Shown here: one piece after another, positions 3,564-49,332 of the stretch
Layout of the letters: every line of letters begins with the position of its first letter
Numbering within the stretch: position 1 is the stretch's first letter
IMG/VR virus record: IMGVR_UViG_3300018082_000011
Location: 1-49,756 of that record
Length of the DNA: 49,756 nt
Origin: a virus
Reading direction: 5' to 3' (one strand)
The notes under the pieces: generated by a model
Databases searched by the model: none
What the model was told of the DNA's origin: nothing
The model's input: only the letters and a program-made list of their open reading frames with translations
Made by a program: the position numbers and the translations under genes

Positions 3564-4409
3564 TCACCCTCCACGCTGGAGCACCGCTCGCGCCCGCTGC
3601 GCCAGCCGCGCCCGGCTGTGATAGACGTAGTCTTCCGACGTCTTGAGCTGCTTCCAGCCAAACAGCTGCATCAGCGTGTGCGGGTCCAGTTCCTCGGCAT
3701 ATCTCGTCGCCGCCGTCTTGCGAAATGCATGCGGATGCACGCGAACGCCGGTGATGTGCGCACGCTCAGTCAGCCGGCGCAGCAGCTCGCCGACGCCGTA
3801 ATACCCCAGGTTGAACAGGTTGGCGGCGCTCGACGGCCGCACGGCCAGCCAGGTCTCCAGCGCCTGGCAGGTTCCCTCACTGTAGAACACCCAGCGCTCC
3901 TGGTCCCCCTTCCCAATCACGGTCGCCGAGCAAACGGCCAGGTCCACGTCGGCGGGCTGCAAGCTACACACTTCGCCCAGCCGGACGCCGGTGTCTGACA
4001 GGAACATCAGCAGCGCCTGGTCACGCTGCGGATTCTCCGAGCCGGCGGCGACGTTGATCAGCTGTTGAACGACTTCGGGGGGCAGGGGTTTGGGGATACG
4101 CTTCGGCAGGCCAGGCCGCTCCAAGCGCGCAGTCGGGTCGTCGGCGCGCAAGCCTTCGGCTACGCACCAGCGGAAGAAAGCTCGCGCCGAGCGGTACGCG
4201 CCATCAATCGAGTGCGGCTTCAGGCCCCGCGCGATCAGGCCGCCCAGCCAGGCGCGCAGATCTGCAAGCGAGACTCGCTCTAGCTCGTTGAGCGAGAGCG
4301 ACCGCGCCAGGTCGTTCAACCACATCTCGTACCAGCGAATCGTCTTCTCTGACTTCCTTCGCAGGCGCAACGACGCCGAGCGCCTTCCGACAGCATCTAA
4401 GAGTTTCAC
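3564..4409 (-). CDS. int: Tyrosine integrase (phage site-specific recombinase)
   Basis: A 281-aa protein. I choose the GTG at 4409 because AGGGAGG lies 5 nt upstream. Residues about 15-95 form a SAM-like N-terminal domain (TIRWYEMWLNDLARSL). The catalytic domain follows, with Arg in TGVRLGEV, Lys in GKGDQERWVF, His-x-x-Arg in HPHAFRKTAATR, Trp in FGWKQLKTS in place of the second His, and the nucleophile in EDYVYHSR. Its 3' end faces attP, so it is the likely enzyme for integration into tRNA-Arg. Length is near that of XerC/D-type integrases, with no separate arm-binding domain obvious. Confidence 0.92.
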   Translation of the reverse strand: MKLLDAVGRRSASLRLRRKSEKTIRWYEMWLNDLARSLSLNELERVSLADLRAWLGGLIARGLKPHSIDGAYRSARAFFRWCVAEGLRADDPTARLERPGLPKRIPKPLPPEVVQQLINVAAGSENPQRDQALLMFLSDTGVRLGEVCSLQPADVDLAVCSATVIGKGDQERWVFYSEGTCQALETWLAVRPSSAANLFNLGYYGVGELLRRLTERAHITGVRVHPHAFRKTAATRYAEELDPHTLMQLFGWKQLKTSEDYVYHSRARLAQRARAVLQRGG

Positions 4410-4455
4410 AGCAGCCTCCCTGAGAGATGTAAGCCGCGTCCGCGACAAACGAAAA

Positions 4456-7823: not shown

Positions 7824-7979
7824 ATGAACGTGCAAAGAAAAAGAGCGCAGCAACCCCCGTCGCCGCGCTCCTCCAGTCGAGACATCCGCCGGTCAGCAGT
7901 GTCCCCCAGCGAGATTGTATCACAAAACAATCTCGCAGGCGTTGGAGGCCACCAACCGGCGCACGAGCGCCGGCCATGA
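7824..7979 (+). CDS. Small basic protein upstream of the replication initiator
   Basis: A 51-aa frame, MNVQRKRAQQPPSPRSSSR at the start, rich in Arg, Ser and Pro. ATG at 7824 follows GGAGG at ideal spacing, and the TGA overlaps the ATG of the initiator (ATGA). The second half of the gene contains the perfect inverted repeat at 7909-7936. It could be a true small DNA-binding protein or a translated leader that controls initiator synthesis. Confidence 0.55.
   Translation: MNVQRKRAQQPPSPRSSSRDIRRSAVSPSEIVSQNNLAGVGGHQPAHERRP
7909..7936. promoter_or_regulatory. Perfect 10-bp inverted repeat upstream of the replication initiator
   Basis: GCGAGATTGT/ACAATCTCGC with an 8-nt spacer ATCACAAA, ending 40 bp before the initiator start. 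It could be an RNA hairpin in the leader or an operator for autoregulation. Confidence 0.55.
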
Positions 7980-9112
7980 CCGAGCGCGAACTCAGAACAT
8001 TTCTCGACCAGGTCAAGCCGGTAGGTCTCACCATTTTATTCGTCATGGCTAACCTGGTCATCCAGCAGGTCGACATCACTCGCGTCGCCCGGGTCATGCG
8101 CACGACTCGCCAGCGACTGGCGCCGCACTTCGACCAGCTGGTCGATCACGGATTCGTCGCCGAAGTGCCCGGCGGCCGGCACCCGCGTTATAGGCTGACC
8201 GAAAAAGTGAAACAGCTCTCGCTGTTCGATCTGACTGCGCTGTCAGGCATGGTCCTCGCAGGCCAACCCGCGCAGTCCGAAAATCCGGCGTTGACAGGCA
8301 TGGTCCTCGCAGACCAACCCGCGCCCGGCGAGAGCAGCGATTGTGACGTTAGTAATTATGACGTTAATAAAATTAACGTCACCCCTGCTTCTGTTGTTGT
8401 TGTTGATCAAGCTATAGATCTAGCTAGATCTCAACAACAACAGCAACAACAGGTGACGTTAAAAAAATTAACGTCAGACTCAGACCGGCGCGCCGGAGTG
8501 CTGCGCGCCTGCGTGGAGGTCGGCATCGGCTATCCGGCGAGCCGCGACCTGGCTACAGACGAGTGGGTCACGCCCGATCGCGTCTTGCGCGCCGTGCGCC
8601 AGTGCGTTTTCGAGGGGCGCTGGGACAATCCGGTCGGGCAGGCCATCCGCCGGCTCGAAGACCATTTCGAGCCGATGACCGACGTCCAGATGGACGCGCT
8701 GGAGGCTGAGGAGCAACGCGAGGAACGTGAACGGCGAGAGGCCATTGCGCGTGAGCAGCCGGATCGTCTGGGTCCGGAGCCGGCGCCCGGACCGGCGGCC
8801 GCGCCGGCCCTGCCCCATCCCAGCCTGGCGCAGCCGATTCACGGCAGCATGAAACCCGGCCAGGTGTGGCAAGCGGCACTCGGCGAGCTGCAGCTGCAGA
8901 TGACCAAGCCCACCTTCGAGACCTGGGTCAAGCCGTGTCAGGTCGTCGCCTACGAATGGTCTGAAGACCACAGGGAGGGCGAGTTCATCGTCGGCGCGCC
9001 GACAGCCCTCCTCAAGGACTGGCTGGAGCGCAAGCTGCTATCGTCCATCCGGCGATCGCTGGCCGGCATCCTGGGCCACAGCGTTGAAGTGACGTTTGTC
9101 GTCACGGAATAG
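7976..9112 (+). CDS. Replication initiator: winged-helix N-terminus, DnaA domain I-like C-terminus
   Basis: A 378-aa protein. Residues about 15-80 form a winged helix (VARVMRTTRQRLAPHFDQLVDHGF, then PRYRLTEKV). Residues about 120-165 come from the AT-rich symmetric DNA element and are low-complexity (DVNKINV, a Gln7 run, VTLKKL). Residues about 290-378 match the DnaA N-terminal domain: WQAALGELQLQMTKPTFETW, then FIVGAPTALLKDWLERK and VEVTFVV. In DnaA this domain recruits helicase and itself, so here it may bring the host DnaB to a phage origin. The plan of an initiator gene with the origin in its own middle is that of lambda gene O. No helicase gene of DnaB type is seen nearby. Confidence 0.8.
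   Translation: MTERELRTFLDQVKPVGLTILFVMANLVIQQVDITRVARVMRTTRQRLAPHFDQLVDHGFVAEVPGGRHPRYRLTEKVKQLSLFDLTALSGMVLAGQPAQSENPALTGMVLADQPAPGESSDCDVSNYDVNKINVTPASVVVVDQAIDLARSQQQQQQQVTLKKLTSDSDRRAGVLRACVEVGIGYPASRDLATDEWVTPDRVLRAVRQCVFEGRWDNPVGQAIRRLEDHFEPMTDVQMDALEAEEQREERERREAIAREQPDRLGPEPAPGPAAAPALPHPSLAQPIHGSMKPGQVWQAALGELQLQMTKPTFETWVKPCQVVAYEWSEDHREGEFIVGAPTALLKDWLERKLLSSIRRSLAGILGHSVEVTFVVTE
8344..8476. other. Candidate replication origin inside the initiator gene
   Basis: Five copies of TGACGTTA: at 8344, 8359 and 8454 forward, and ending at 8381 and 8476 inverted. Four form two nearly identical 23-bp palindromes (8359-8381 and 8454-8476), each with 9-bp arms TGACGTTAA/TTAACGTCA and a 5-bp AT centre. 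Between them lie GTTGTTGTTGTTGA (8393-8406), the perfect palindrome GATCTAGCTAGATC (8417-8430) and TCAACAACAACA (8431-8442). The block is AT-rich in a GC-rich gene and encodes only low-complexity peptide. This is the organisation of an iteron origin. Confidence 0.7.
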
Positions 9113-9120
9113 CGTGCGGC

Positions 9121-9753
9121 ATGAGCGATATTGCGCAACTCGCCGACGAACTCAAAACTATCCTGAAGCCGGCCTGCGAGCGCATCGAGCTCGCCGGCTC
9201 GATCCGGCGCAGTAAGCCCGACCCAAAGGACATCGAAATCTGCGCGATTCCGCGCTTCATCGCCCAATCGCAGGCCGGCCTGTTCGGCGATGAAATGCCC
9301 CTCGGCGCCGTCAACCAGCTCGATGACCTGGTCGAGATGCTGGCGAACGGCGAGGGTGACTGGGAGTTCGACCCGGTGACGCGGCGCAACGGCCACAAAT
9401 ACAAGCGGCTGCGCCACCGCGAGACGCTGATAGCCTGCGACCTGTTCATCACCGACGCGCGGCGCTGGGGAGCAATCCTTGCGATCCGGACCGGGCCAGC
9501 CGATTTCTCGAAAGCGCTTGTTGGTCTGGCGCTCCTGCGTGGGATGTTTGTCGATGAAGGGCTGCTGCACCAGCATCACCGGCAATACAAGATGAAAAAT
9601 GGGGAGAGGGTTCCCCTGCCCTGCTCGCGCGGTGATGCATGCTCGCTGATTGTGCCGACACGGGAGGAAAAGGATTTCTTCCAAACACTCGGCGTGGCGT
9701 GGCTTGAGCCGGCCAAGCGGACTCTGGCGCGGCTCATCAGGAGGCGAACATGA
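9121..9753 (+). CDS. DNA polymerase X-like nucleotidyltransferase
   Basis: A 210-aa protein with the pol beta palm pattern: ELAGSIRRSKPDPKDIEIC gives the GS motif and the Asp-x-Glu metal ligands (about 26-40). A third acidic residue is in ACDLFITDARRWGAIL (about 108), followed by the family-typical RTGPADFSKAL. The C-terminus ends EEKDFFQTLGVAWLEPAKR, as in phage and bacterial PolX-like proteins. It probably adds or fills nucleotides in repair or replication; the fingers/8-kDa lyase domain is absent. It lies 8 nt after the initiator and is probably co-expressed. Confidence 0.85.
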   Translation: MSDIAQLADELKTILKPACERIELAGSIRRSKPDPKDIEICAIPRFIAQSQAGLFGDEMPLGAVNQLDDLVEMLANGEGDWEFDPVTRRNGHKYKRLRHRETLIACDLFITDARRWGAILAIRTGPADFSKALVGLALLRGMFVDEGLLHQHHRQYKMKNGERVPLPCSRGDACSLIVPTREEKDFFQTLGVAWLEPAKRTLARLIRRRT

Positions 9754-9797
9754 ATCCGCGAAGCAGACCACCCAGCGTGATCCGTTCATTCTCCTAA
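9750..9797 (+). pseudogene. Start of a gene cut short by a dispersed repeat
   Basis: An ATG at 9750 overlaps the previous stop (ATGA) and has a strong CAGGAGG ribosome-binding site, yet the frame stops after 15 codons inside a family 4 repeat. I infer a former gene truncated when the repeat arrived or recombined. The alternative is a genuine 15-aa peptide. Confidence 0.4.
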
Positions 9798-9807
9798 TCC
9801 GTTGTTA
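9779..9807. repeat. Family 4 repeat, ATTCTCCTAATCCGTTGTT
   Basis: One of four copies (also 14160, 38064, 46278) of a roughly 29-bp sequence made of ATCCGTT-x-A and ATTCTCCTRATCCGYTGTT. Confidence 0.75.
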
Positions 9808-9813
9808 ATAAGC

Positions 9814-9970
9814 GTGCCGGCCCGAGGTTCTTGGCCTCCGACCGGCACTAAACCGTGCGCCGAGCGGTGATGAGAGGTAGCGGCGCGGGGTCTGCGGCAG
9901 ATGATACACCACCTGCCCGGCCCCCCGCAAGACCCCTCTCAGCCGACGGCGCGACGAGCGCCGTTTTTTT
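9814..9970 (+). ncRNA. Structured leader RNA before the membrane-protein genes
   Basis: Pairing visible: GTGCCGG/CCGGCAC (9814-9848), GCGCCG/CGGCGC (9857-9886), a strong GGGGTCTGCGG/CCGC-A-AGACCCC stem with one bulged A (9887-9936), and a terminator (9946-9970). No open frame of note. The number of hairpins and the final terminator 16 nt before the next gene resemble the leader at 1886-2018. I do not recognise it as a known riboswitch class. Confidence 0.5.
9946..9970 (+). terminator. Intrinsic terminator in the leader of the membrane-protein operon
   Basis: ACGGCGC/GCGCCGT with a 5-nt loop and seven T residues, 15 nt before the ATG at 9986. Confidence 0.8.
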
Positions 9971-9985
9971 ATTTCTGAGGATGCG

Positions 9986-10468
9986 ATGCACGAAGGCGTT
10001 GGCGAAAAACTCCATAGAGTCGCCGAACTGCTCGGCCAACTTCTGGCCGCGATCGCGCGCTTCGTGCTCGACGTGCTGACCGTCGTGCTTCGGCTGCTGG
10101 TCGAGGCCATCGAGGCGCTGGCGCCCTATGTCCCCCTACTCGTCAAGGCCAGCTGTGTGGCCACGCCCATCGCCGCGATTGTCATCGCCTTCCCACTTGC
10201 CCACGTCGCCTACGGCGGCGACGTGCCGGCGCTGCTGGCGGCCGCCGTGCTCACACTGCTACCCGTGCTGGCCGCCCTCCCCTTGCGCTGGGGCGGCCTG
10301 CTCGTGTCGGCGCTGATCGTTGTATTCACCGGCTACGGGGTGAGCGTGCTGCACCCCCTCGTTCGGAGCCTGCTGCTGGTCGCCGTGCTCGCAGGCATCA
10401 GCACCTATCAACTCTTCAACTCACAGGAGGAAGAACATGAAAGCACAACTCTGGAGGATCGTTCTTGA
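9986..10468 (+). CDS. Polytopic membrane protein
   Basis: A 160-aa protein. After an amphipathic N-terminal helix (LLGQLLAAIARFVLDVLTVV) there are about four hydrophobic segments, including ASCVATPIAAIVIAF, LLAAAVLTLLPVLAAL, LLVSALIVVF and SLLLVAVLAG. ATG at 9986 follows TGAGGATGCG. It overlaps the next membrane gene by 32 nt, so the pair is probably made together. It could act in superinfection exclusion or lysis; neither can be shown. Confidence 0.65.
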   Translation: MHEGVGEKLHRVAELLGQLLAAIARFVLDVLTVVLRLLVEAIEALAPYVPLLVKASCVATPIAAIVIAFPLAHVAYGGDVPALLAAAVLTLLPVLAALPLRWGGLLVSALIVVFTGYGVSVLHPLVRSLLLVAVLAGISTYQLFNSQEEEHESTTLEDRS

Positions 10469-11111
10469 GATCGCAGCCACTGGCGTGATTCTGCTCACCG
10501 CCATCCGCACGGTCGACCTGCTCAAGTGGACCACCACCAACGAGCTCGTCGCCTACCTGGGCGTACTCGTGCTCGACGGCGGCATGTACCTCTGGGCGCG
10601 GATCTACATGCACGCCGCGCACGGCGCCACACAGCGCGCCGTCGCGCTGCTGGTGACCGCCATCGACCTCGTCGGCGTCGGCGTCACCTTCACCGCCGAC
10701 ATGGTCATCAACACCGCGCAGCGCGGCCTCATCGGGCAGCTCAGCCCGCAGGACACGCAGACCATCATCGCCGCGATCGCAGTGGTTACCATCGTCAACG
10801 TCGCCGCCTTCATCGTCTACGCCATGGCCTCGCCCGACCTGCAGATGCTCATGGCCGAGGAGTACGCACGCGGCAAAATCGACGCGGCTAAGTTGAAGCG
10901 CATCCGCGAGCGCGCCGACACACTCGCCGCCGAAGTGGCGCCCGAGCTGGAGGAGGCCTGGGTCGACGAAATGCGCGCGCAGTACAAGGCGCAGCGCCGG
11001 CCGCAGCCCTCGGCCAACAGCCACGACGGAGCCAAGCCGGCTGCGCCGATGCACGCCGAGGCAGACGGAGCGGAGCTCCCAAAAGGCGGCCGCCGGCGCG
11101 CCGAACCCTAA
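10437..11111 (+). CDS. Membrane protein with charged cytoplasmic tail
   Basis: A 224-aa protein with AGGAGG before the ATG. There are four predicted membrane segments in the first 140 residues (VILLTAIRTV, AYLGVLVLDGGMYLWA, ALLVTAIDLVGVGVTF, IIAAIAVVTIVNVAAFIVYAM), then a long helical, charged tail (RGKIDAAKLKRIRERAD). Its last codons, ending RRAEP, are written by a CCCTAAAGGG repeat, whose TAA is the stop. No family recognised. Confidence 0.65.
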   Translation: MKAQLWRIVLEIAATGVILLTAIRTVDLLKWTTTNELVAYLGVLVLDGGMYLWARIYMHAAHGATQRAVALLVTAIDLVGVGVTFTADMVINTAQRGLIGQLSPQDTQTIIAAIAVVTIVNVAAFIVYAMASPDLQMLMAEEYARGKIDAAKLKRIRERADTLAAEVAPELEEAWVDEMRAQYKAQRRPQPSANSHDGAKPAAPMHAEADGAELPKGGRRRAEP

Positions 11112-11115
11112 AGGG
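11106..11115. repeat. Family 1 palindromic repeat, CCCTAAAGGG form
   Basis: Provides the stop codon of the membrane-protein gene; flank CGAACCCTAAAGGGCGTTCC is the reverse complement of 2447-2466. Confidence 0.85.
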
Positions 11116-11125
11116 CGTTCCAGAA

Positions 11126-11602
11126 ATGAGCGATACTGGCATGGCGGGCACGCCGGCCAGCCATGCCAGTATCCCAACCGATGCCAGTATCAATCCCTCG
11201 CCGTCTCCCCACTCGCCCGATCCAGCCGGCGGCGATCCGGGAGGCGATGCCAGTAGCGGCGTGCCGGCCGGCATCCTCGACCAGGTCTCGAAGATACTGG
11301 CACGTCTGGATACTGGCACAAGCACCGATACTGGCACTGCTGGCACGTTAGACCACACCGGCTGGAGAATCGAGGTATTCACCAATGGCAAAGGCAGACG
11401 ATACTGGCAACGGCGCACAGGCAGCGGTCGCAACCGGCGCGCCCGTTACGGAGGCACGCTCGACACCATCCCGGGCGGCGAAGCGCGCCAGGCGGAATAC
11501 TGGCAACGACATCACCGTCGCCGAGCGGCTGGAGATTCTCCAGCAGGCGCTGGTCGACCTGGAGCGGCACGGGATCAGCGTCACGGCTATCCGCCATCCT
11601 GA
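11126..11602 (+). CDS. Hypothetical protein spanning the first part of the ATACTGGCA array
   Basis: A 158-aa frame from the ATG at 11126. The first 75 residues are low-complexity and shaped by the DNA repeat (SDTGMAG, HASIPTDASI, LDTGTSTDTGTAG). A plausible small basic domain follows (GWRIEVFTNGKGRRYWQRR). The last 70 residues overlap another frame (11385-11717) and are of doubtful reality. Peptide content seems secondary to the DNA array. Confidence 0.45.
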   Translation: MSDTGMAGTPASHASIPTDASINPSPSPHSPDPAGGDPGGDASSGVPAGILDQVSKILARLDTGTSTDTGTAGTLDHTGWRIEVFTNGKGRRYWQRRTGSGRNRRARYGGTLDTIPGGEARQAEYWQRHHRRRAAGDSPAGAGRPGAARDQRHGYPPS

Positions 11603-11734
11603 GCGCCGGATGGCGATACTGGCACTCAGCGGAGCGGACTATTGCCAGTATTGCCGGCGGCTGCGACTGCGTGAGGAAATTGACGGCGACAAGTGCCAGT
11701 ATTGCGCCGGCAAGTAGATACTGGCATACTGGCA
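11132..11734. repeat. Iteron-like array: 13 perfect copies of ATACTGGCA plus one near copy
   Basis: Forward copies start at 11133, 11294, 11310, 11328, 11401, 11497, 11616, 11718 and 11726. Reverse copies (TGCCAGTAT) start at 11164, 11182, 11643 and 11694; an 8/9 match is at 11248. The first two form a 14-bp-arm inverted repeat, GATACTGGCATGGC/GCCATGCCAGTATC (11132-11173). Copies occur in all reading phases of two overlapping genes and continue past the second stop codon, so the DNA rather than the protein is conserved. No other perfect copy was noticed in the window. Likely roles are a binding site array for partition, replication control or repression. Confidence 0.85.
11385..11717 (+). CDS. 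Zinc-ribbon hypothetical protein
   Basis: A 110-aa protein. A helical part (VAERLEILQQALVDLERHGI) is followed by a strand (RRMAILALSGA) and two CxYC pairs (DYCQYCRR, KCQYCAGK) about 20 residues apart, a clear four-cysteine zinc ribbon. GAGG lies 9 nt before the ATG. Several codons, including both CQYC motifs, are written by TGCCAGTAT copies. It overlaps the gene at 11126 by 218 nt in another frame and looks the more genuine of the two. Confidence 0.6.
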   Translation: MAKADDTGNGAQAAVATGAPVTEARSTPSRAAKRARRNTGNDITVAERLEILQQALVDLERHGISVTAIRHPERRMAILALSGADYCQYCRRLRLREEIDGDKCQYCAGK

Positions 11735-11747
11735 TTCAGAAGGGAGT

Positions 11748-11978
11748 ATGAACATGATCACCCAAGCGCACATCATCAACGTCGACAGCATCCACATCGC
11801 CGAGTGGTCACCTGAGACGCGTCCCGGCCGCAACCCGCCGACACAAGTACACCTGATCTTTAGTGTGCCGTCGATCACGCCAATCCCGATCGTCGTTCGC
11901 TTCAAGTCGCCGGCGACGCTCGATCGCGTCATCGCCGCGCTGCAGGAGCATCGGCGCGGCGTGTGGGGGGACCCGTGA
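11748..11978 (+). CDS. Hypothetical protein
   Basis: A 76-aa protein, or 74 aa from the ATG at 11754, which has better spacing to GGGAG. It is beta-rich (VHLIFSVPSITPIPIVVRFKS) and ends with a helix (RVIAALQEHRR). The stop overlaps the next GTG (GTGA). No family recognised. Confidence 0.6.
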   Translation: MNMITQAHIINVDSIHIAEWSPETRPGRNPPTQVHLIFSVPSITPIPIVVRFKSPATLDRVIAALQEHRRGVWGDP

Positions 11979-12235
11979 AGGCCCACGTCCGTAAGGGCAA
12001 GCCTGTGTGCTTGCCCCATTCCACACCTTACGTAGACCTGATGGACGCCAGCCCGGATGGCGCCCTGGCGCGTTGGCAGGTCAATCTCAAACGCTACGCC
12101 ATCCAGATTCAGCGCGATTATCCAACGGCCGCCGAGACTCTGCGGCTCGTTTGTCGCGAGATGGAGACGGCGCGCAAGGCCCTGAAGAAGAATCAGCGCG
12201 CTGCGCAAGGATCATCCCATGCTGCGCATCGCTGA
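11975..12235 (+). CDS. Hypothetical protein with a repeat-written N-terminus
   Basis: An 86-aa protein starting at GTG 11975 (GGGGGG upstream, stop-start overlap with the previous gene). The N-terminus VRKGKPVCLPHSTPY is encoded by a family 2 hairpin repeat (11995-12016). The rest is a basic helical domain (ALARWQVNLKRYAIQIQRDY, MEMETARKALKK-like end). It overlaps the ATPase gene by 17 nt. Confidence 0.6.
   Translation: MKAHVRKGKPVCLPHSTPYVDLMDASPDGALARWQVNLKRYAIQIQRDYPTAAETLRLVCREMETARKALKKNQRAAQGSSHAAHR
11995..12016. repeat. Family 2 hairpin repeat, GGGCAAGC-N6-GCTTGCCC
   Basis: An 8-bp stem with loop CTGTGT, preceded by CCGTAA as in the copy at 13935. It lies inside a coding region. Confidence 0.85.
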
Positions 12236-13934
12236 CGATCTGACCCTCCCGCCCGAAGCCGTTACGCAGACCTTCGGCATTCTCGCCAAACGGCGCGTCG
12301 GCAAGACCTACACGGCCTCGGTGATGGCCGAGGAATTCTGTAAAGCTAAACTGCCCTTCGTCGCACTCGACCCGACCGGCGCCTGGTGGGGCCTGCGCAG
12401 CTCGGCCGACGGCAAGCGCGAAGGCTACCCGGTGATCATCCTCGGCGGCGAGCACGGCGACGTGCCGCTCGAGGCGAGCGTCGGCAAGGTCGTCGCCGAC
12501 CTGGTCGTCGACCATCCGGGCTTCTATGTCATCGACCTGTCGGCGACGCAGTCCAACGCGGAGCAGGATCGCTTCGTGACCGACTTTGCCGAGCGCCTGT
12601 ACCGGCGCAAGGCGCAGCACAAACATCCGCTGCACCTGTTCGTCGACGAGGCCGACAGCTTCGCACCGCAGCGGCCATTGCCCGGCCAGCAGCGCATGCT
12701 CGGCGCGATCGAGGCCATCGTCCGCCGCGGCGGGATCCGGGGCCTGGGCGCGACGCTGATCACGCAGCGCCCGGCCGTGCTGAACAAGAACGTCCTGACG
12801 CAAATCGAGGTCCTGGTCATCCTGCAGATCACGGCGCCGCAGGACCGCGCCGCGATCGACGAGTGGGTGAGGGGCAACGGCACGAAAGAGCAGCGCGACG
12901 AGCTGGTGGCTTCGCTCGCCTCGCTGGGTAAGGGCGACGCCTGGTTTTGGAGTCCGGCCTGGTTGGACGTCTTCAAGCGCGTGCACGTGCGCCGGCGCGA
13001 AACGTTCAACTCGTCGGCCACGCCGGAGGTGGGGAAGTCGGCCGGCGAGCCGCGCCGGCTGGCGCCGGTCGACCTGGAAGCGCTGCGCTCGCAGATGGCC
13101 GCCACGCTGGAACGCGCGAAGGAAACCGACCCGAAAGAATTGCAGCGGCGCATCGCCGAGCTACAGCGGCAGGCGCTCAAGCAGTCCCAGCCGGCCGCGA
13201 CCCGGGTCGAAATCCAGCGCGTCGAGGTGCCGGTGATCACCCAATCAGATATCGCTCGCTTTGAGAAAATCGGCCGAGAAATAAACGAAGCGATCAAAGA
13301 ATTTCAAGCGGCAGCCGACCAGTTGTCGCGCAACTTGCAGGCTCGCTTAGCCGCATTCCACAAATCGTCGCCGTCGTCGCGAGCGCTTCCGGTTTCCCCG
13401 GCGCGCATTCCCCGGCCGGCTCCAACGCCGGCGCGCGTCGAAATGGACAGCACGGCGGCGCTGCCCAAGGCCGAGCGCAGCATCCTGACCGTGCTCGCGC
13501 AATACCCAAATGGCAAATCAGTGCGCGAGATCGCCGTCATTGCCGGCTATGCCTGGAAGGGCGGGGGATTCAATAACGCGCTGAGCTACCTGCGCAAACG
13601 GGAACTCGTCGCCGGCAGCAAGGAGCGCTATCAGATCACCGACGCCGGCCTGGCGGCGCTCGGGGAGTGGGAGCCGTTGCCGACCGGGCAGGCCCTCATC
13701 GACTACTGGATGCGCCAGCTGCCGAAGGCGGAACGGGCCAGCCTGACCGTCCTGGTGAACCATTATCCCGACTCCCTAGACAGGGAGTCGCTCGCCGCCG
13801 AAGCCGGCTACAAAGCCGATGGCGGCGGCTTCAACAATGCCGTCAGCAAGCTGCGCACGCTGGAACTAATCGAGGGTCGCCAGGAACTCAAAGCCAGCGA
13901 CATCCTGTTCACCCCGGATCCGTCCCCTCCGTAA
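12219..13934 (+). CDS. HerA/FtsK-like ATPase with C-terminal winged-helix repeats
   Basis: A 571-aa protein. Walker A is ILAKRRVGKTYTA (about 24-36), Walker B LHLFVDEAD (about 143-151), and a sensor-like stretch GATLITQRPAVLNKNVLTQ follows, as in HerA/DUF87 ATPases that pump or remodel DNA. A coiled-coil region covers about 280-375. Two related winged-helix units end the protein, each with PKAER-x-LTVL and a GGGFNNA motif (about 412-480 and 505-565). It could be a DNA translocase or a segregation/packaging motor that recognises the nearby ATACTGGCA array; the link is inferred from position only. Confidence 0.8.
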   Translation: MLRIADDLTLPPEAVTQTFGILAKRRVGKTYTASVMAEEFCKAKLPFVALDPTGAWWGLRSSADGKREGYPVIILGGEHGDVPLEASVGKVVADLVVDHPGFYVIDLSATQSNAEQDRFVTDFAERLYRRKAQHKHPLHLFVDEADSFAPQRPLPGQQRMLGAIEAIVRRGGIRGLGATLITQRPAVLNKNVLTQIEVLVILQITAPQDRAAIDEWVRGNGTKEQRDELVASLASLGKGDAWFWSPAWLDVFKRVHVRRRETFNSSATPEVGKSAGEPRRLAPVDLEALRSQMAATLERAKETDPKELQRRIAELQRQALKQSQPAATRVEIQRVEVPVITQSDIARFEKIGREINEAIKEFQAAADQLSRNLQARLAAFHKSSPSSRALPVSPARIPRPAPTPARVEMDSTAALPKAERSILTVLAQYPNGKSVREIAVIAGYAWKGGGFNNALSYLRKRELVAGSKERYQITDAGLAALGEWEPLPTGQALIDYWMRQLPKAERASLTVLVNHYPDSLDRESLAAEAGYKADGGGFNNAVSKLRTLELIEGRQELKASDILFTPDPSPP

Positions 13935-13956
13935 GGGCAAGCCTGTGTGCTTGCCC
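13935..13956. repeat. Family 2 hairpin repeat, GGGCAAGC-N6-GCTTGCCC
   Basis: Immediately after the stop of the ATPase gene, where it could act as its terminator. Confidence 0.85.
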
Positions 13957-13961
13957 TATCT

Positions 13962-13986
13962 GTTTTGTGTCAATTTGACACAAAAC
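13962..13986. promoter_or_regulatory. Operator-like perfect palindrome overlapping a promoter
   Basis: GTTTTGTGTCAA-T-TTGACACAAAAC, 12-bp arms. Its right arm contains the -35 box of the promoter at 13975-14003, the expected place for a repressor site. No second copy noticed. Confidence 0.7.
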
Positions 13987-14003
13987 CGCGTCCGGCCTAT
14001 AAT
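13975..14003 (+). promoter_or_regulatory. Consensus sigma70-type rightward promoter
   Basis: TTGACA (13975-13980), a 17-nt spacer and TATAAT (13998-14003), a perfect match to consensus. It points into the small frame at 14026 and then against the 3' end of the late operon. Confidence 0.8.
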
Positions 14004-14196: not shown

Positions 14197-14693
14197 TACC
14201 GGCGCAGGATTCTCTCGGCCAGCGGCATCGCCGACCACAACGCAATCCACAGCGTCGTCCATAGCACGACGTTAAGCAGGAATGCCTCGCGGCCCAGCGT
14301 TCCCCCGCCCCAGCAGATGTGCCAGGCGTCGCACGTCCAGACGAAGTCCGCCGGCAGCCCGCGCCCGTCGAGCCAGTAGTACAGCACATCGACTACACCA
14401 TTAACGCTAAACAGGAACAGCGTGCCCGCGAAGAACACGCGCTCCATCCAGCGACCCGCAAGCAAAAGAACACCGACCAGCGCCATCCCGTCACGCATGA
14501 CACGCCAGCCGTCGTGATAGCGCCCGTCGAATGTCGATAACCAGGCACGCCCCTCAACGAGCCGTTGCCAGATCAGCACGTCTGCCCAGGCGAATAAGCA
14601 CACGGCAGCCAGCGCCGCCACGATAACCCGCTTGCGTACACTCATCCGCGTGTCGATTCCGTAGAATCCGTGCCAGAATCCGTGAGTGCTCAT
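14121..14693 (-). CDS. Membrane protein at the end of the late operon
   Basis: A 190-aa protein with about four membrane segments (VIVAALAAVCLFAWADVLIW, VLLLAGRWMERVFFAGTLFLF, and two more near VVLWTTLWIALW). ATG 14693 overlaps the previous stop (ATGA); a second ATG at 14648 would skip the 15 residues written by AATCCGTG repeats. The C-terminus (GRIRQMDVRCEAHFSVDM) is written by family 4 and family 1 repeats. Function unknown. Confidence 0.6.
   Translation of the reverse strand: MSTHGFWHGFYGIDTRMSVRKRVIVAALAAVCLFAWADVLIWQRLVEGRAWLSTFDGRYHDGWRVMRDGMALVGVLLLAGRWMERVFFAGTLFLFSVNGVVDVLYYWLDGRGLPADFVWTCDAWHICWGGGTLGREAFLLNVVLWTTLWIALWSAMPLAERILRRYQKEQRIGRIRQMDVRCEAHFSVDM
14132..14141. repeat. Family 1 palindromic repeat, CACTAAAGTG form
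   Basis: With the GGGCTTCGCAC flank shared with the copy at 6695. Confidence 0.85.
14160..14189. repeat. Family 4 repeat
   Basis: ATTCTCCCGATCCGCTGTT, near the 3' end of the last late gene. Confidence 0.7.
14644..14685. repeat. Family 3 cluster of AATCCGTG units
   Basis: Three ATTCCGT/AATCCGTG units at the 5' end of the gene ending at 14121. Confidence 0.75.
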
Positions 14694-15466: not shown

Positions 15467-15482
15467 TGTCTCTCCGATTCCC

Positions 15483-15510
15483 CTTCCGTGGAATCCGTTG
15501 AATCCGTGTT
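15483..15510. repeat. Family 3 cluster of AATCCGTG units
   Basis: Forms most of the spacer between the Gp37-like and LamG genes. Confidence 0.75.
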
Positions 15511-24793: not shown

Positions 24794-24868
24794 ACGCACG
24801 GATTATTACGGATGACACGGAGAAAGCATCGCCCATGTTCTCATCCGTGCAATCCGTTGAATCCGTGT
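24794..24868. repeat. Family 3 cluster of AATCCGTG units in both orientations
   Basis: Fills the gap between the 24875 gene and the connector, with units inverted relative to each other (CACGGATT and AATCCGTG). Confidence 0.8.
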
Positions 24869-30022: not shown

Positions 30023-31029
30023 CGCGTGATGACTCCCGCAGAAATGCGAGGCCGTGTCACAAGCGACGCAGCGGCGGCGATGGCCGCCTCGACCTCGACA
30101 TTCACCGGCCAATCCGATGCCATGTAGACCCGTTTGGGATCATCCACGAACGTCGTGCCGGTGTAGGTGCCGTCGAAGGCATTATCGGTGTAGTCAATGG
30201 CTGTGGTCGGCGTGCCGGCGTCCCACAAAATCCATTGCAACTCCATGTACAGGTCTTGCGGGAGATAGAGTTGGTCGAGCCACTCCACACGCTGGAGCCG
30301 CTCGTTGGCAGTCCAGGCCGCCGCCGCCTTCTTCCAAAAACGCACGTAGGCAATATCGCCGTCCCAAAAATTACCCGGTGTGGCTTCGCTGGCGGCGCCT
30401 ACTCGAAAAGGTCGGTCATTCTCCAAACTGCCCAAGAGCGCCGAATTGGTCGGCCCGTTTACAGTGGAATTCTGATACAGATACCCGTCGTCGTTTGTTA
30501 GAGAGTTAGCAACCAGCACCCCGGTTAGCGCATACCATGTTCCAGCAACCAGAGCTGTTCCTTGCTGCTCAATCTCGTCTACGGCGTCTGCGACGTGAAA
30601 GGTCGGAACTTCGGTGGATCGCATGGCAATCTGATAGCCTGCGGAACCTAGGGCATTGATGTTATTTTCCTTGCCGCAAAGCACACGCCCGACTGTTCCG
30701 ACCGCATCCAGCTTAGCGAGCGTCTGGATCACCAATGAATCGCCGTCGGCTACGTCCAATGTAGCGTCATCACCCGACCGGTCGAGACGATCGTCGACGG
30801 CGTCGAAGTTGCGCGCCCCGCCTGAGATCGGCATGGGCACATCTAGCCGATAGCCCCGGTCGATGAGGTCTGAGACGAGATCCCGACCGCGTTCCGTCCA
30901 GGCCCACCGCCTGAGCCACTTCTTCTTGTCCCCACGCATCATCAGGCGCGCGGTATCCTCGATGTCCAGCTCCCAATGGAGCGAGGGCAAGACCAGTGGC
31001 CTGCCGTTGATCCACTTGACCACGCTCAC
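30019..31029 (-). CDS. LamG-like structural protein
   Basis: A 336-aa protein from GTG 31029 (GTGA overlap with the previous stop). A LamG-like region covers about 70-250: ARNFDAVDDRLDRSGDDATL, TWYALTGVLV, NFWDGDIAYVRFWKKA. The C-terminus is Ala-rich. A second LamG-type protein of this phage is at 14690. Confidence 0.65.
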   Translation of the reverse strand: MSVVKWINGRPLVLPSLHWELDIEDTARLMMRGDKKKWLRRWAWTERGRDLVSDLIDRGYRLDVPMPISGGARNFDAVDDRLDRSGDDATLDVADGDSLVIQTLAKLDAVGTVGRVLCGKENNINALGSAGYQIAMRSTEVPTFHVADAVDEIEQQGTALVAGTWYALTGVLVANSLTNDDGYLYQNSTVNGPTNSALLGSLENDRPFRVGAASEATPGNFWDGDIAYVRFWKKAAAAWTANERLQRVEWLDQLYLPQDLYMELQWILWDAGTPTTAIDYTDNAFDGTYTGTTFVDDPKRVYMASDWPVNVEVEAAIAAAASLVTRPRISAGVITR

Positions 31030-31514
31030 GGCGTCGTGTACTCCAAGACCATGAACATGAGTTGGGCGGCGGCGGCGAACGTGTCCCCGGCGTCCGCGCC
31101 AATGCGGCTCACTCGCAAGTGCAACTGTTCATTGGCAGCCCACCCGGTCGTGGTCAGGACTTGGGTGTCAACATTCACGATATTGGCCGTGGCCGCGCCG
31201 TTGGCAAAGTTGGCAACGTCGGAGTTCGACAGCGCCGCATCGGACGATTCCGTATCCGCCCGTGAAACGTTCTCGAATTGCCAACGCACGGCGTTCGTCG
31301 CGGCTGAGTTTCCGCGCCAATGAAATCGCAATGTTCCACCACTGGCCCAATTCCCAGGAATCGCCAAGAGCCAGTCGTAACTCTCTGTCACGCCGTCGGC
31401 GTACTCGATCGCCGGCTTGTCGAGGTTTGTGTCGTCAGCCCGTTTCCACAGCGCGGGCGAGGCCGATGGCGCAACACCCGCATTGGGTGAGATCAGGAGG
31501 TAGGCCGTTCCCAT
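31026..31514 (-). CDS. Beta-rich structural protein
   Basis: A 162-aa protein: YLLISPNAGVAP, YDWLLAIPGNWASGGTLRFH, ANIVNVDTQVLTTTGWAAN, LHLRVSRIGADAGDTFAA, LMFMVLEYT. This is a complete jelly-roll-like pattern and resembles particle proteins of tailed phages. Its start lies inside the small gene ending at 31493. Confidence 0.6.
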   Translation of the reverse strand: MGTAYLLISPNAGVAPSASPALWKRADDTNLDKPAIEYADGVTESYDWLLAIPGNWASGGTLRFHWRGNSAATNAVRWQFENVSRADTESSDAALSNSDVANFANGAATANIVNVDTQVLTTTGWAANEQLHLRVSRIGADAGDTFAAAAQLMFMVLEYTTP

Positions 31515-31630
31515 TCAAGAGCCTTTAGCCCATACCTGGAATGCCTACTGCTCCACTCGATGCTGTCGTCCAGGTCGACGTCGGCCGTCAGACACTGCGA
31601 CCGGTAAGAATCGAACAATGCGTTTGCCAT
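31493..31630 (-). CDS. Small protein, possibly the start of a formerly longer gene
   Basis: A 45-aa frame, MANALFDSYRSQCLTADVDL at the start. AAGGA lies 8 nt before the ATG, and it overlaps the next gene by 22 nt in another frame. The N-terminus recalls longer phage structural proteins that begin MANALYDK, so this may be a remnant separated by a frameshift. Confidence 0.5.
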   Translation of the reverse strand: MANALFDSYRSQCLTADVDLDDSIEWSSRHSRYGLKALEWERPTS

Positions 31631-31652
31631 TAGCCTTGTCCTTCCTCAACTC

Positions 31653-31898
31653 TCACTTCTTGGCAGCGGGTTCTTTAACCGCCTTGTCCCTTGGCGGCTT
31701 TTCCATCGCCTTCGTCGTGGAATCCACTCGTTGCACTTTAGTGTTAGTGTTCGGCGCTTCGGGCATCTGGGTCGAGAAATTCTCCGGCGCGTCCCTCAGC
31801 AGGAAAAGACCGACAGCCTCGTCGACTTCGATGATCCCCGCCTCAAAGTGCAGCTTCGAGGCTGTGTTGTCGTAAGCGCTTTTGCAATACAGTTTCAT
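31653..31898 (-). CDS. Small basic-tailed protein of the structural module
   Basis: An 81-aa protein, CAGGAGGAG before the ATG. The N-terminus KLYCKSAYDNTASKLHFEAG and EVDEAVGLFLLRDAPENF resembles small head-associated proteins. The Lys-rich end includes residues written by a CACTTTAGTG repeat. It overlaps the glycosyltransferase gene by 56 nt, because the latter has been extended by repeats. Confidence 0.6.
   Translation of the reverse strand: MKLYCKSAYDNTASKLHFEAGIIEVDEAVGLFLLRDAPENFSTQMPEAPNTNTKVQRVDSTTKAMEKPPRDKAVKEPAAKK
31734..31743. repeat. Family 1 palindromic repeat, CACTTTAGTG form
   Basis: Inside the 3' part of the gene at 31653, followed by TTAGTGTT as at 36262. Confidence 0.8.
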
Positions 31899-32733
31899 TT
31901 GTCTCCTCCTGTTGGGGTAATCCTGCGTGATTACCCTGGGGTAATCCTGCGTGATTACCCTGGGGTAATCCTGTGTGATACCCCTCAGGCAGGTCGTGCT
32001 CCAGCTGGCCCCACGCGCCCCAGTTCGGAAACTGCGCGCGGCCGGCGTGCCGTGCCTTGACGGCTCTCGTCGCGAACACGCGCGCGCCGGCCAGGTACGC
32101 CATCCGCGAGAAGAACCAATCCTCCGGCTCGACGTCCACGTCCCACCGACCGGCCTCGTTTTGATAGATCGTGTCGTTGACCTGAAAGCGAACCTGCTCC
32201 ACCCATCGCCCGCGCAGATCGATCAGGACGAGGCCGGTGTTGACCAACAAACAAGGATTGGGCGCATCGAAGTCTCCAAACAACTCGGCCAGGTCGCGCA
32301 CGCCGAACGTTTCGGGTAGCCTGTCCAGTTCATGCAACGTCAGACGGCGGCGACGAACTGGATCAGTCCTCAGACCCGCCCAACGCGTATCGGGCAGAAA
32401 GGCCGTCGAGGTGAGTCCTTTCTCATCCTTAATCGGCAGCACGACCGACAGCACATCGCAGGCTTGCGCTTCCATTTCGGCAAGCAACCTGCCGACGAAG
32501 CCCGATTCACCCGGCAGCACATCGGAATGAATCAACATGAAATGTGTCACGTCCGGTCGCATGTTGAGTGCAGTACACCACAGCACATTACACGTCAGGG
32601 CCAGCAGCGACGAGGTGTGCGTCGCCACTTGAAACGGTGGACTCTCAGGCGCATGGGTCTCATTGAGCAAGGCCGATAGTAGAGATACATGCGCCTGAGC
32701 GTCATAAGAGGGCAAACCAATCAGCACCCTCAC
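31843..32733 (-). CDS. Glycosyltransferase-like protein with repeat-extended C-terminus
   Basis: A 296-aa protein from GTG 32733. RVLIGLPSYDAQAHVSLLSA and FMLIHSDVLPGESGFVG give a GT-A-like N-terminus with a metal-site-like HSD. NPCLLVNTGLVLIDLRGRW and DVEPEDWFFSRMAYLAGARV are typical of GT2-related phage enzymes. The C-terminus is GYHTGLPQ and two GNHAGLPQ units from three tandem family 2 repeats, then about 20 residues in the frame of the next gene. It may glycosylate capsid or tail proteins. Confidence 0.72.
   Translation of the reverse strand: MRVLIGLPSYDAQAHVSLLSALLNETHAPESPPFQVATHTSSLLALTCNVLWCTALNMRPDVTHFMLIHSDVLPGESGFVGRLLAEMEAQACDVLSVVLPIKDEKGLTSTAFLPDTRWAGLRTDPVRRRRLTLHELDRLPETFGVRDLAELFGDFDAPNPCLLVNTGLVLIDLRGRWVEQVRFQVNDTIYQNEAGRWDVDVEPEDWFFSRMAYLAGARVFATRAVKARHAGRAQFPNWGAWGQLEHDLPEGYHTGLPQGNHAGLPQGNHAGLPQQEETNETVLQKRLRQHSLEAAL
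31915..31984. repeat. Three tandem family 2 hairpin repeats, 24-bp period
   Basis: GGGTAATC/GATTACCC at 31915-31936 and 31939-31960, and a decayed third (GATACCCC) at 31963-31984. The 24-bp period keeps frame and adds GNHAGLPQ units to the glycosyltransferase. Confidence 0.9.
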
Positions 32734-46277: not shown

Positions 46278-46307
46278 ATCCGTTCAATTCTCCCTATCCG
46301 TTGTTAT
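46278..46307. repeat. Family 4 repeat at the end of the second recombinase gene
   Basis: ATCCGTTCAATTCTCCCTAT followed by CCGTTGTTA; overlaps the recombinase stop codon. Confidence 0.7.
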
Positions 46308-47341
46308 TTCTTCCCAAACGCCGCGCGAACTGCGCTGGCCGCGCCGACCCCGGCATCCTGGATGTAGCCCTGCATCACGCGCTCGCTCTTGTGCCCCGTC
46401 TGCGCCATGATGTCCCGCGATAGCACGCCGGCGCTGGCCGCCTCGGTGATGAAGCCCGAGCGCAGCGAGTGACCGGCGAACTTCTCCGGATCCAGGCCGG
46501 CGCGCCGCGCGGCAGCCTTGACGATGAGCGCGACGGCTTTATCGGTGAGACGCGTCTTGCGCACGTGGCCCCAGCGGTCGATCGCGCGGAAGAGCGGACC
46601 CGACGTGATTCCACTCGCGGCCAGCCAGGCCCGCAGCGCACGCGCCGGGTCGAGTGGGTCGCTGCTGCCTGCTTGCGCTCCGCTCTGCGGGGTTGCGCCC
46701 CGCTCCGCGGGGTCGAGCACGGGGATGGTCTTGGTCAGGCCTTTGCCTTCCGGATCGGTCTTCGAGCGCCGCACGCGGAGCGTGAGCCTGTCTCGCGTAA
46801 CGCGCACGTCGTCGACGTCCAGGCCGACCAGCTCGGAGCGCCGGAACGCGCCGGCCCAGCCGATGAGGATAATCGCTTTGTCGCGAGTGCCGGCTAAAGT
46901 CGGCGGCAGCGCATTGACCATCGCCTCAAGCTGCTCGCGCAGGACCGGCGCTTTCTTGTCCGGCGCCGTCCCCAGCTCGCGCCGGATGCCGGCCATCAGC
47001 AGCTTCACGTCGACGTCCTTGGTTGGATCAGGCGCGTGCGCCACCTGGTGCGCCTCGGCGATCGCGGCGAGCTTGAGCTGGATGGTCGAAACTTTCTGCT
47101 CTTCGGCCAAATGAACCACGTAGGCCGCTACGCCCGCGGAGGTCGCCGGCAGAGGACTGGCCTGGGTCATCTCACAGAACTCGCGGAAGTCGGCCCAGGC
47201 CGCTGTGTATATCTGCTTCGTGCGCTTCGACTTGGAGCGACGCGCGTAGTCGAGTCCTTTGCGCCTGAGCGCTGCAATGCGCTTGTTGCTCGCCGTGACA
47301 GAGTACCCCGCTTTTCTGGGTATCAGCGCCTGGCCGGACAT
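46304..47341 (-). CDS. Second tyrosine recombinase
   Basis: A 345-aa protein from ATG 47341 (AAAGGA upstream). SAM-like core-binding domain at about 35-115 (KRTKQIYTAAWADFREFCEM). Catalytic residues are Arg in GAFRRSELVGL, Lys in RSKTDPEGKG, His-x-x-Arg in GHSLRSGF, His in TGHKSERVMQGY, with that Tyr as nucleophile. An in-frame GC-rich repeat (AERGATPQSGAQAGS, about 205-225) is inserted between strands of the catalytic domain. It is not next to attP, so a role in resolving genome multimers or in another integration or inversion event is possible. Confidence 0.88.
   Translation of the reverse strand: MSGQALIPRKAGYSVTASNKRIAALRRKGLDYARRSKSKRTKQIYTAAWADFREFCEMTQASPLPATSAGVAAYVVHLAEEQKVSTIQLKLAAIAEAHQVAHAPDPTKDVDVKLLMAGIRRELGTAPDKKAPVLREQLEAMVNALPPTLAGTRDKAIILIGWAGAFRRSELVGLDVDDVRVTRDRLTLRVRRSKTDPEGKGLTKTIPVLDPAERGATPQSGAQAGSSDPLDPARALRAWLAASGITSGPLFRAIDRWGHVRKTRLTDKAVALIVKAAARRAGLDPEKFAGHSLRSGFITEAASAGVLSRDIMAQTGHKSERVMQGYIQDAGVGAASAVRAAFGKK
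46676..46716. repeat. GC-rich repeat CGCTCTGCGGGGTTGC inside the recombinase gene
   Basis: Two imperfect copies of CCGCTCYGCGGGG, the same unit as at about 1345. It keeps the reading frame. Confidence 0.55.
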
Positions 47342-47401
47342 TGGCAAATCCTTTCTAGGACTGACAACTTACCATTGTCGGAAGTGAGAAAAGGCCGAAA
47401 A

Positions 47402-48103: not shown

Positions 48104-49332
48104 CGAACGGTTTCCTTTCGTTGGGGCAATCCTGCGTGATTGCCTGGTTGGGGCAATCCTGCGTGATTGCCCTCTCCTGCCGGCTGGGCCTGCGCCTGGA
48201 ACACCTGCCGCGCTTCCTTCTCGGCGATCGAATCCGGCAGCCACTGGCCACCCGAATCCTTGCGCGGCTTCAACCAGTCATACAGCGCCAGGATCCAGCT
48301 ATCCGGCGTGCTGGCCAGGCTGTCGATACCGACCAGGTAGGCCAGCACATTGCGGCGCGCGGCTTGCGGCCAGCCCTTGTTCGTCCCGGCTTCTGCGTCG
48401 CCGGCAAAGCAGATCTCCAGCGCCGTCGCCACCAGGCCTTTCTGCGCGTTCGCCGCCGTGTGGCTCGCCTGCGCGTGCTCGTCGGCTCGACGCTTCAGGA
48501 AAGCGCGCAGCGTTTCAGGATCGAGCGGCCGCGTGTGACCGTTGCTTGATGGAGCGGCAGCCGTCGCCGTCGCAGCCGTCACCGTCGCCGTCGCATGGCT
48601 CTCCGGCGCCGGGCTTGAGCCAGGTTGCGACTCGACCGGCGCCGCATCGTAGATCGCCGCCTCGATACGCTCGGGCATCCCCTGCCAGGTCCCCGACTCG
48701 TCCCACAGCGTCATGCCGCTGTGCGCGCCGGCCTGGCGTGTCCAGACGACCTTGACCCCGCGTCGCTGCGTGGCCTCGTCGGCGACGAGGTGCAGCTCGA
48801 CGTTGAGCGAGCGGCGCAGGCGCTCCAGCTCGGTCTTGGGCAGCGTCGCCGTGACGACCTTCTCGGCCTTCTCGTTGCGCCCGCGCTGCAGGTGCCAGAT
48901 CCACAGCGTGTGGGTGCCCCAGCGCGTCACCGCATCCTGCAGCAGGCGCATCACCAGCGCCTTGTCGATGAAGCCGGCCATCTTGTTCTTGTTCTCGCCG
49001 GCCTCGTTGTCGAGCATGCCCCGCACGATCAGCGGCGCGATGAGCGTCGTCAGCGAATCGACGACGATCGTGCCCACGTCGCTGCCGGGCATGTGCGCCT
49101 CGAGCAGACGCGCGATCTGAGCGGGCACGACGTTGTCGGCCGGATTCTCGCTCAGCCGGTACACGTCGCCGGCGGCCAGCGCCAGCACCTCGGCGAAGCG
49201 CTGGTCGGCGTCAACCGGCAACAATGGCCCGCGCATCTGCGTGGCGAAAGTCGACTTGCCCGAGCCGGGGAAGCCGACCAGCGCCCAGTGGCGCGGGGGG
49301 TATTTCGGAATGGTCATTTTCTTGAAAGACAT
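48100..49332 (-). CDS. RecA-like ATPase, Sak4/AAA_24-type, with repeat-extended C-terminus
   Basis: A 410-aa protein from ATG 49332 (CAGGAGG upstream). Walker A is ALVGFPGSGKSTFA (about 17-30), Walker B TIVVDSLTTL (about 88-97), followed by THTLWIWHLQRGRNEKAEK. This is the plan of phage Sak4-type single-strand annealing/RecA-like proteins that act with an SSB in recombination-dependent replication. From about 235 the protein is a linker rich in Ala, Thr and Pro, then a helical domain. The last residues, EGNHAGLPQPGNHAGLPQ, come from two family 2 repeats and share GNHAGLPQ with the unrelated glycosyltransferase. Confidence 0.78.
   Translation of the reverse strand: MSFKKMTIPKYPPRHWALVGFPGSGKSTFATQMRGPLLPVDADQRFAEVLALAAGDVYRLSENPADNVVPAQIARLLEAHMPGSDVGTIVVDSLTTLIAPLIVRGMLDNEAGENKNKMAGFIDKALVMRLLQDAVTRWGTHTLWIWHLQRGRNEKAEKVVTATLPKTELERLRRSLNVELHLVADEATQRRGVKVVWTRQAGAHSGMTLWDESGTWQGMPERIEAAIYDAAPVESQPGSSPAPESHATATVTAATATAAAPSSNGHTRPLDPETLRAFLKRRADEHAQASHTAANAQKGLVATALEICFAGDAEAGTNKGWPQAARRNVLAYLVGIDSLASTPDSWILALYDWLKPRKDSGGQWLPDSIAEKEARQVFQAQAQPAGEGNHAGLPQPGNHAGLPQRKETVR
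48124..48172. repeat. Two family 2 hairpin repeats, GGGCAATC-N6-GATTGCCC
   Basis: Copies at 48124-48144 (last base altered) and 48151-48172, 27 bp apart, in frame at the 3' end of the ATPase gene. Confidence 0.9.

Follow-up and report, generated by a model that had tools for sequence, protein, structure and literature searches.

Why would a phage carry fourteen almost identical 9-bp sites inside the coding DNA of two small overlapping genes? The window, by which we mean the whole stretch of DNA analysed, is an entire IMG/VR contig of 49,756 bp from an uncultured virus, which is a tailed phage as judged from its portal, capsid-protease, tail and tape-measure genes and a terminase-like gene. 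Counted over the whole record, the word ATACTGGCA is present as 13 exact copies and one 8/9 copy (CTACTGGCA), all within 11133–11734 and on both strands. Nine exact copies are forward (11133, 11294, 11310, 11328, 11401, 11497, 11616, 11718 and 11726) and four are reverse (11164, 11182, 11643 and 11694); the 8/9 copy at 11248 is also reverse, so that the orientation along the array reads + - - (-) + + + + + + - - + +. Successive sites are 31, 18, 66, 46, 16, 18, 73, 96, 119, 27, 51, 24 and 8 bp apart, an irregular series in which some distances are not multiples of three and no helical phasing is found (p = 0.70). No exact copy lies outside the array anywhere in the 49,756-bp record. The recount confirms what the initial annotation had observed, which had also noticed no further perfect copy in the window; the many copies elsewhere that it had named as counter-evidence were not found.

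This density is far from chance. Allowing up to one mismatch, we found 23 matches to the word, against 5.0 ± 2.5 in shuffled sequences. Its core 8-mer, TACTGGCA, is seen 14 times, against 0.011 expected per 700 bp under a local Markov model, and the array scores 37.2, against a best of 6.8 in thirty simulated 49.8-kb sequences (Markov, same trinucleotide content). The array region holds a single further degenerate copy, with 2 mismatches, at 11337, and the 9-bp word is therefore kept almost all-or-none. The flanks of the copies are unrelated, with G or A favoured before the word and G never found after it, and conservation ends sharply at 9 bp. A literature search for the word returned, among the matches listed, incidental sequence matches only.

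The array is co-extensive with two genes taken together. ORF1 (158 amino acids; 11126–11602, + strand) has a low-complexity N-terminal part that holds the array, followed by an Arg-rich segment, GWRIEVFTNGKGRRYWQRRTGSGRNRRARYGG; ORF2 (110 amino acids; 11385–11717, + strand) overlaps it in a different frame. The first site opens within the third codon of ORF1, and the last closes 13 nucleotides 5′ of the next start codon, at 11748. The first two copies of the array form an inverted repeat with 14-bp arms (GATACTGGCATGGC / GCCATGCCAGTATC; 11132–11173), as the initial annotation had described, and a second inverted pair, GGCGATACTGGCA ... TGCCAGTATTGCC, lies at 11613–11655. The last three copies span 11694–11734: the reverse copy at 11694 is inside ORF2, and the forward copies at 11718 and 11726, which overlap by 1 bp, lie in the gap between ORF2 and the following gene, p11748. 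A codon-usage model favours ORF1 to about 11500 and ORF2 from about 11470, and both are therefore plausibly real genes. The C-terminal part of ORF2 reads CQYC...CQYC, with two array copies specifying the QY residues; judged from the protein sequence, this motif could possibly form zinc knuckles.

The array is supported as being selected as DNA and not as protein, because its copies use all codon phases, continue past a stop codon and are not recovered by back-translation. They occupy phases 0, 1 and 2 of ORF1 and phases 0 and 1 of ORF2, are translated as DTG, ASI, ILA, YWQ and CQYC, and two of them lie beyond the ORF2 stop. In 5,000 trials, back-translation of the two proteins with phage codon usage gave means of 0.36 (ORF1) and 0.42 (ORF2) copies and a maximum of 3, compared with 8 and 5 observed. 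The initial annotation had proposed DNA-level selection from the codon phases and the copies past the stop, and the proposal holds.

ORF1 and ORF2 belong to a gene run (9986–13934) that is bounded by terminator-like hairpins, one upstream (9945–9965, + strand) and one downstream (13934–13957). Two membrane-protein genes (9986–10468 and 10437–11111, both + strand) precede them, and two small ORFs follow on the + strand: p11748 (76 amino acids; 11748–11978), the first gene 3′ of the array, and p11963 (up to 90 amino acids; 11963–12235). The run closes with an ATPase of the HerA/FtsK superfamily (12219–13934, + strand) that has tandem winged-helix-like domains at its C terminus. No sigma-70-type promoter, the one type searched for, is predicted in 9500–13900, and thus none within or immediately 5′ of the array. 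A perfect sigma-70 promoter match (TTGACA-17-TATAAT, 12/12; 13975–14003) lies in the convergent gap that follows the ATPase gene and is directed antisense into the late genes.

Other repeats are scattered through the record. A dispersed element, ACACTAAAGTGCGTTCC or AACCCTAAAGGGCGTTCC, occurs in 14 copies both within and between genes (844, 2453, 3388, 3479, 6670, 6696, 11107, 14133, 31735, 36271, 37196, 40124, 44492 and 47692); on either side of a TAAA loop its CAC/GTG and CCC/GGG variants change together, as the arms of a tiny hairpin would, and one AACCCTAAAGGGCGTTCC copy (11104–11121, + strand) lies immediately 5′ of ORF1. When the dispersed repeats were used to look for the host, the genomes sampled from the phylum to which a Chloroflexia MAG (G048) belongs gave nothing. 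The word CACGGATTC has 11 copies between 245 and 47503 (for example at 14664–14685, 15481–15509 and 24840–24868), 10 of the 11 on the - strand, often with related units following one another in twos or threes at steps of about 9 to 12 bp, near late-gene starts. Tandem 24- to 27-bp hairpin repeats, GGGG(T/C)AATCCTGCGTGATT(A/G)CC, are found at 31901–31983 and 48110–48171, with related copies in a sibling phage (L032), and a similar hairpin, GGGCAAGCCTGTGTGCTTGCCC, at 11988 and 13928.

What, then, would the sites do? Their number, strictness and layout suggest that the locus is very probably a binding array: its 14 strict 9-bp sites, which lie mostly within two small early genes that overlap, would be recognised by a sequence-specific DNA-binding protein. 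We propose that either ORF1 or ORF2 would encode the binder, since the array runs from the third ORF1 codon through both genes and no further than the gap behind them; judged from this arrangement, the chances of the binder being encoded there are about even. The product would coat the array as a nucleoprotein patch, the patch may serve stable inheritance of the phage DNA as a centromere-like site that works without ParA, and the same protein would probably autoregulate its own genes. A segregation-like role is speculative, drawn by analogy with plasmids, and we give it about one chance in three. The explanation taken whole, an ORF1 or ORF2 product acting on a ParA-less centromere-like and autoregulatory array, is the one we prefer, and it stays tentative, clearly short of an even chance.

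The analogy comes from two plasmid systems. On R388, two sets of five 9-bp repeats are bound by StbA, and the plasmid is stabilised without the StbB ATPase (PMC3098194). The likeness lies in a 9-bp word repeated about ten times, a small plasmid protein and stability without an active ParA-type motor; however, the stbDRs surround a promoter and follow one another directly, with two bases between repeats, whereas the sites here are irregular, in both orientations and inside genes. The likeness to StbA is drawn from the sites. On RA3, KfrA binds five 9-nucleotide repeats that are present in both orientations and nowhere else on the plasmid, and that are required for stable maintenance (PMC7783346). 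The phage array is similar in having repeats both ways and a word absent from the rest of the replicon, but the KfrA repeats are only five and are clustered over a promoter, and KfrA, a long protein, combines a coiled coil with an HTH. As in ParA-less maintenance, a word of about 9 bp is present here in multiple copies at one locus only.

Several points weigh against the preferred explanation. Neither ORF1 nor ORF2 has a family match, the predicted fold of ORF2 is poor (pLDDT 57.5) and DNA binding by either product is putative. StbA and KfrA sites are found at promoters, those of the binder's operon, and the array has no predicted promoter of the sigma-70 type. The ParA-type ATPase and ParB_N protein of ParABS-type partition both went unfound: the record, which is possibly incomplete, has no AAA_31 match (the one model that the search for ParA-type motors covered) and no match to the ParB_N domain (PF02195). 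In addition, two tyrosine recombinases, encoded at 3567–4448 and 46307–47347 and one of them clearly XerC/D-like, suggest an integrating prophage, which would need no centromere. Integrase arm-type sites (attP) would be expected beside an integrase gene, together with a core site. The distance from the array to the two integrase genes is 6.7 kb and 35 kb, and ARAGORN found no tRNA, although a partial core would escape it.

The alternative that survives best, while still unlikely, is that the sites are replication-control iterons with the geometry of a DnaA-box cluster, forming a second origin or a titration or copy-control locus for a phage or host initiator. Asymmetric 9-bp sites in irregular, mixed orientation are typical of DnaA-box-type clusters, and the array, with 9-mers in both orientations at irregular spacing, has this geometry; moreover, two related phages (L069 and L143) hold smaller embedded arrays, AAAGGGTGRCA iterons, inside initiator-like genes. 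However, ATACTGGCA agrees with the E. coli DnaA box, TTATCCACA, at just 4/9 positions, and the AT content of the array region is average (0.37), its best 60 bp ranking merely within the top 4.5% of the record, with no outstanding AT-rich stretch. The record also has a candidate replication initiator (7976–9112, + strand), with an N-terminal winged-helix-like region and a C-terminal DnaA domain I (DnaA_N), for which exact peptide patterns found no relative in IMG/VR. Inside this gene, which sits 2.7 kb upstream of the array, a candidate phage origin (8344–8476) carries different, palindromic iterons, TGACGTTA-N7-TAACGTCA, as two palindromes with one additional half site. It also includes the 60 bp that are richest in AT in the whole record (maximum at 8413). 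These iterons flank (GTT)n/(CAA)n inverted arms.

Iterons inside an initiator gene are the architecture of a lambda-type origin, the lambda iterons lying within gene O (PMC7466680). The array resembles such an origin in that its sites lie within an early phage gene, in DNA that also codes for protein; lambda, however, has four to six iterons beside an AT-rich tract in its initiator gene, and the array has the dense repeated sites of an iteron origin with neither an adjacent AT-rich unwinding region nor an adjacent initiator gene. The phage origin is probably at 8344–8476, better placed there than at the array, which therefore probably has a different job. The proposal in the initial annotation that the array is a replication iteron set is thus weakened for a primary origin, because separate, palindromic iterons coincide with the AT-richest 60 bp inside the initiator gene, and keeps a low probability for other roles in replication control.

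It is also unlikely that the array is a multi-operator, at which a regulator would silence or autoregulate the early gene run (9986–13957) by a roadblock inside the transcribed region. The position of the array would suit this role, since it lies in a run bounded by terminator-like hairpins, begins at a start codon and ends before the next, and KfrA uses 9-bp repeats as its operator (PMC7783346). Against it, fourteen sites across 600 bp far exceed what an operator needs, and no promoter-like site is found in or just 5′ of them.

The initial annotation had further suggested a loading site for the neighbouring ATPase, whose C-terminal winged helices would read the sites as loading or orientation signals, comparable to clt/TRS or KOPS. 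KOPS are read by FtsK, and TraB is an FtsK-type ATPase with a C-terminal winged helix that recognises the clt repeats. The adjacency of array and ATPase, its tandem C-terminal winged-helix-like domains and the two membrane proteins upstream would fit such a function, for which the assembly of Streptomyces TraB on the 8-bp TRS repeats of clt is a precedent (PMC4170104). The ATPase matches solved HerA chains by profile (best E 6e-23) and HerA 4d2i by fold, while falling short of the full HerA equivalog cut-offs. Exact peptide patterns of the ATPase alone found no relative in IMG/VR; its homologues were collected from 181 IMG/VR contigs (80 kept) and 56 loci in bacterial genomes. Full-length homologues at 31–44% identity (H22–H33) are encoded on large mycobacterial and other actinobacterial plasmids, and make up a family of HerA-like ATPases whose tails are tandem winged helices.

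These relatives argue against loading. In 47 phage records encoding the ATPase, ATACTGGCA occurs 0, 1 or 2 times, much like a reversed-word control; no comparable array flanks the ATPase homologues, so the sites do not accompany the enzyme; and membrane genes lie 5′ of it in just 4 of 70 loci, the present record counted. The winged-helix motif GGGFxNxLSxLR is conserved among the homologues, a similar DNA target would therefore be expected across them, and we infer that the ATPase does not read ATACTGGCA. In this the case differs from clt/TRS and TraB, as the phage ATPase family shows no link to an array in its relatives. Related phages that keep the proteins and lack the 9-mer, which the initial annotation had named as evidence against its proposal, thus exist for the ATPase; its idea of a multi-site array for a DNA-binding protein stands, and loading by the ATPase is very unlikely.

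Two further explanations are more improbable still. At the RNA level, inverted copies could form mRNA hairpins or copies could pair with a small RNA: both inverted pairs do fold far better than shuffles (11132–11173, a hairpin region of about -39 kcal/mol, z -4.0; 11613–11655, z -4.5), but nine forward and five reverse copies make full pairing impossible, the cluster at 11285–11350 folds worse than shuffles (z +1.4) and there is no Rfam match. Recent functionless spread of a short mobile or slippage-born word, for which the other dispersed short repeats of the record might speak, is just as remote given unrelated copy flanks, mixed orientation, irregular spacing and copies that are nearly all perfect though in coding DNA and in all frames.

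To return to the preferred binding array, is it one of a kind? Among 15 relatives, read whole except for one (G004, first 20 kb only), a single one has a comparable array, of an unrelated word. This phage (G001, IMGVR_UViG_3300044717_000016; ATPase 50% identical) carries a score-30 array of GGTA(C/G)TACC within 31105–31720, dense, in both orientations and embedded in a winged-helix-like gene immediately 3′ of parA; the two genes span 30656–32685 (L220:10656–12685). It is a candidate embedded centromere of another phage, and as such it speaks for the preferred explanation. The two arrays are alike as dense, mixed-orientation 9-bp words inside a gene of phages sharing the ATPase, and differ in that the G001 word is another one, near-palindromic, partly periodic at 18 bp, next to parA and in unrelated genes. 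In L061 (3223–3496), an integrase gene has a tRNA-like core beside it with five GTGGTGACAT-like, arm-type-like sites around the core, an arrangement that is a clear attP candidate. With the arrays of G001, L069, L143 and L061, embedded arrays, of a different word each time, seem from these sequences to be a recurring habit in phages sharing the ATPase. Among the mixed-orientation, non-tandem arrays in about 2.1 Mb of such relatives' DNA, none is as dense as that of ATACTGGCA.

Wider searches covered collections whose scans may omit the record's own genome and near kin. Scanning IMG/VR for three forward copies with gaps of ≤30 bp gave 22 matches, and the inspected clusters were set aside as tandem protein repeats because their spacings are multiples of 3 (9–36 bp); scanning for an inverted pair within 30 bp gave 39 matches, never with more than 2 copies per 600 bp. 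Two siblings (L031 and L032) are 81–94% identical in the late region, as short fragments that do not cover the array region. We found no relatives of ORF1 or ORF2 by tblastn in phages or plasmids, and none of ORF2 by exact peptide patterns in IMG/VR; weak ORF2 matches in three records (E about 0.002–0.006) were judged to be noise, each having a stop codon inside. The searched collections yielded no relative carrying either the array or ORF1 or ORF2, so the pairing of array and genes rests on one sequence.

Short binding-site arrays, also inside genes, are already known. New here are this word and the near-perfect way in which it recurs across a pair of overlapping genes; it has neither a recognisable binder nor, in the searched collections, a described counterpart. 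It is conceivable, though improbable, that ORF1, ORF2 and the array make up a self-contained cassette, in which a new type of sequence-specific DNA-binding protein, encoded by the gene pair, would bind a centromere-like array lying entirely in its own coding DNA and so give ParA-independent inheritance. Arrays hidden in genes are easily missed, because annotation treats such DNA as protein-coding. The present one is extreme: its fourteen 9-bp sites are almost perfect, use every codon phase and extend over two overlapping genes whose products are sequence orphans. If the binder and its role are found, the locus would provide a new protein–DNA pair for phage maintenance or control, and a measure of how far coding sequence bends to hold a second message.
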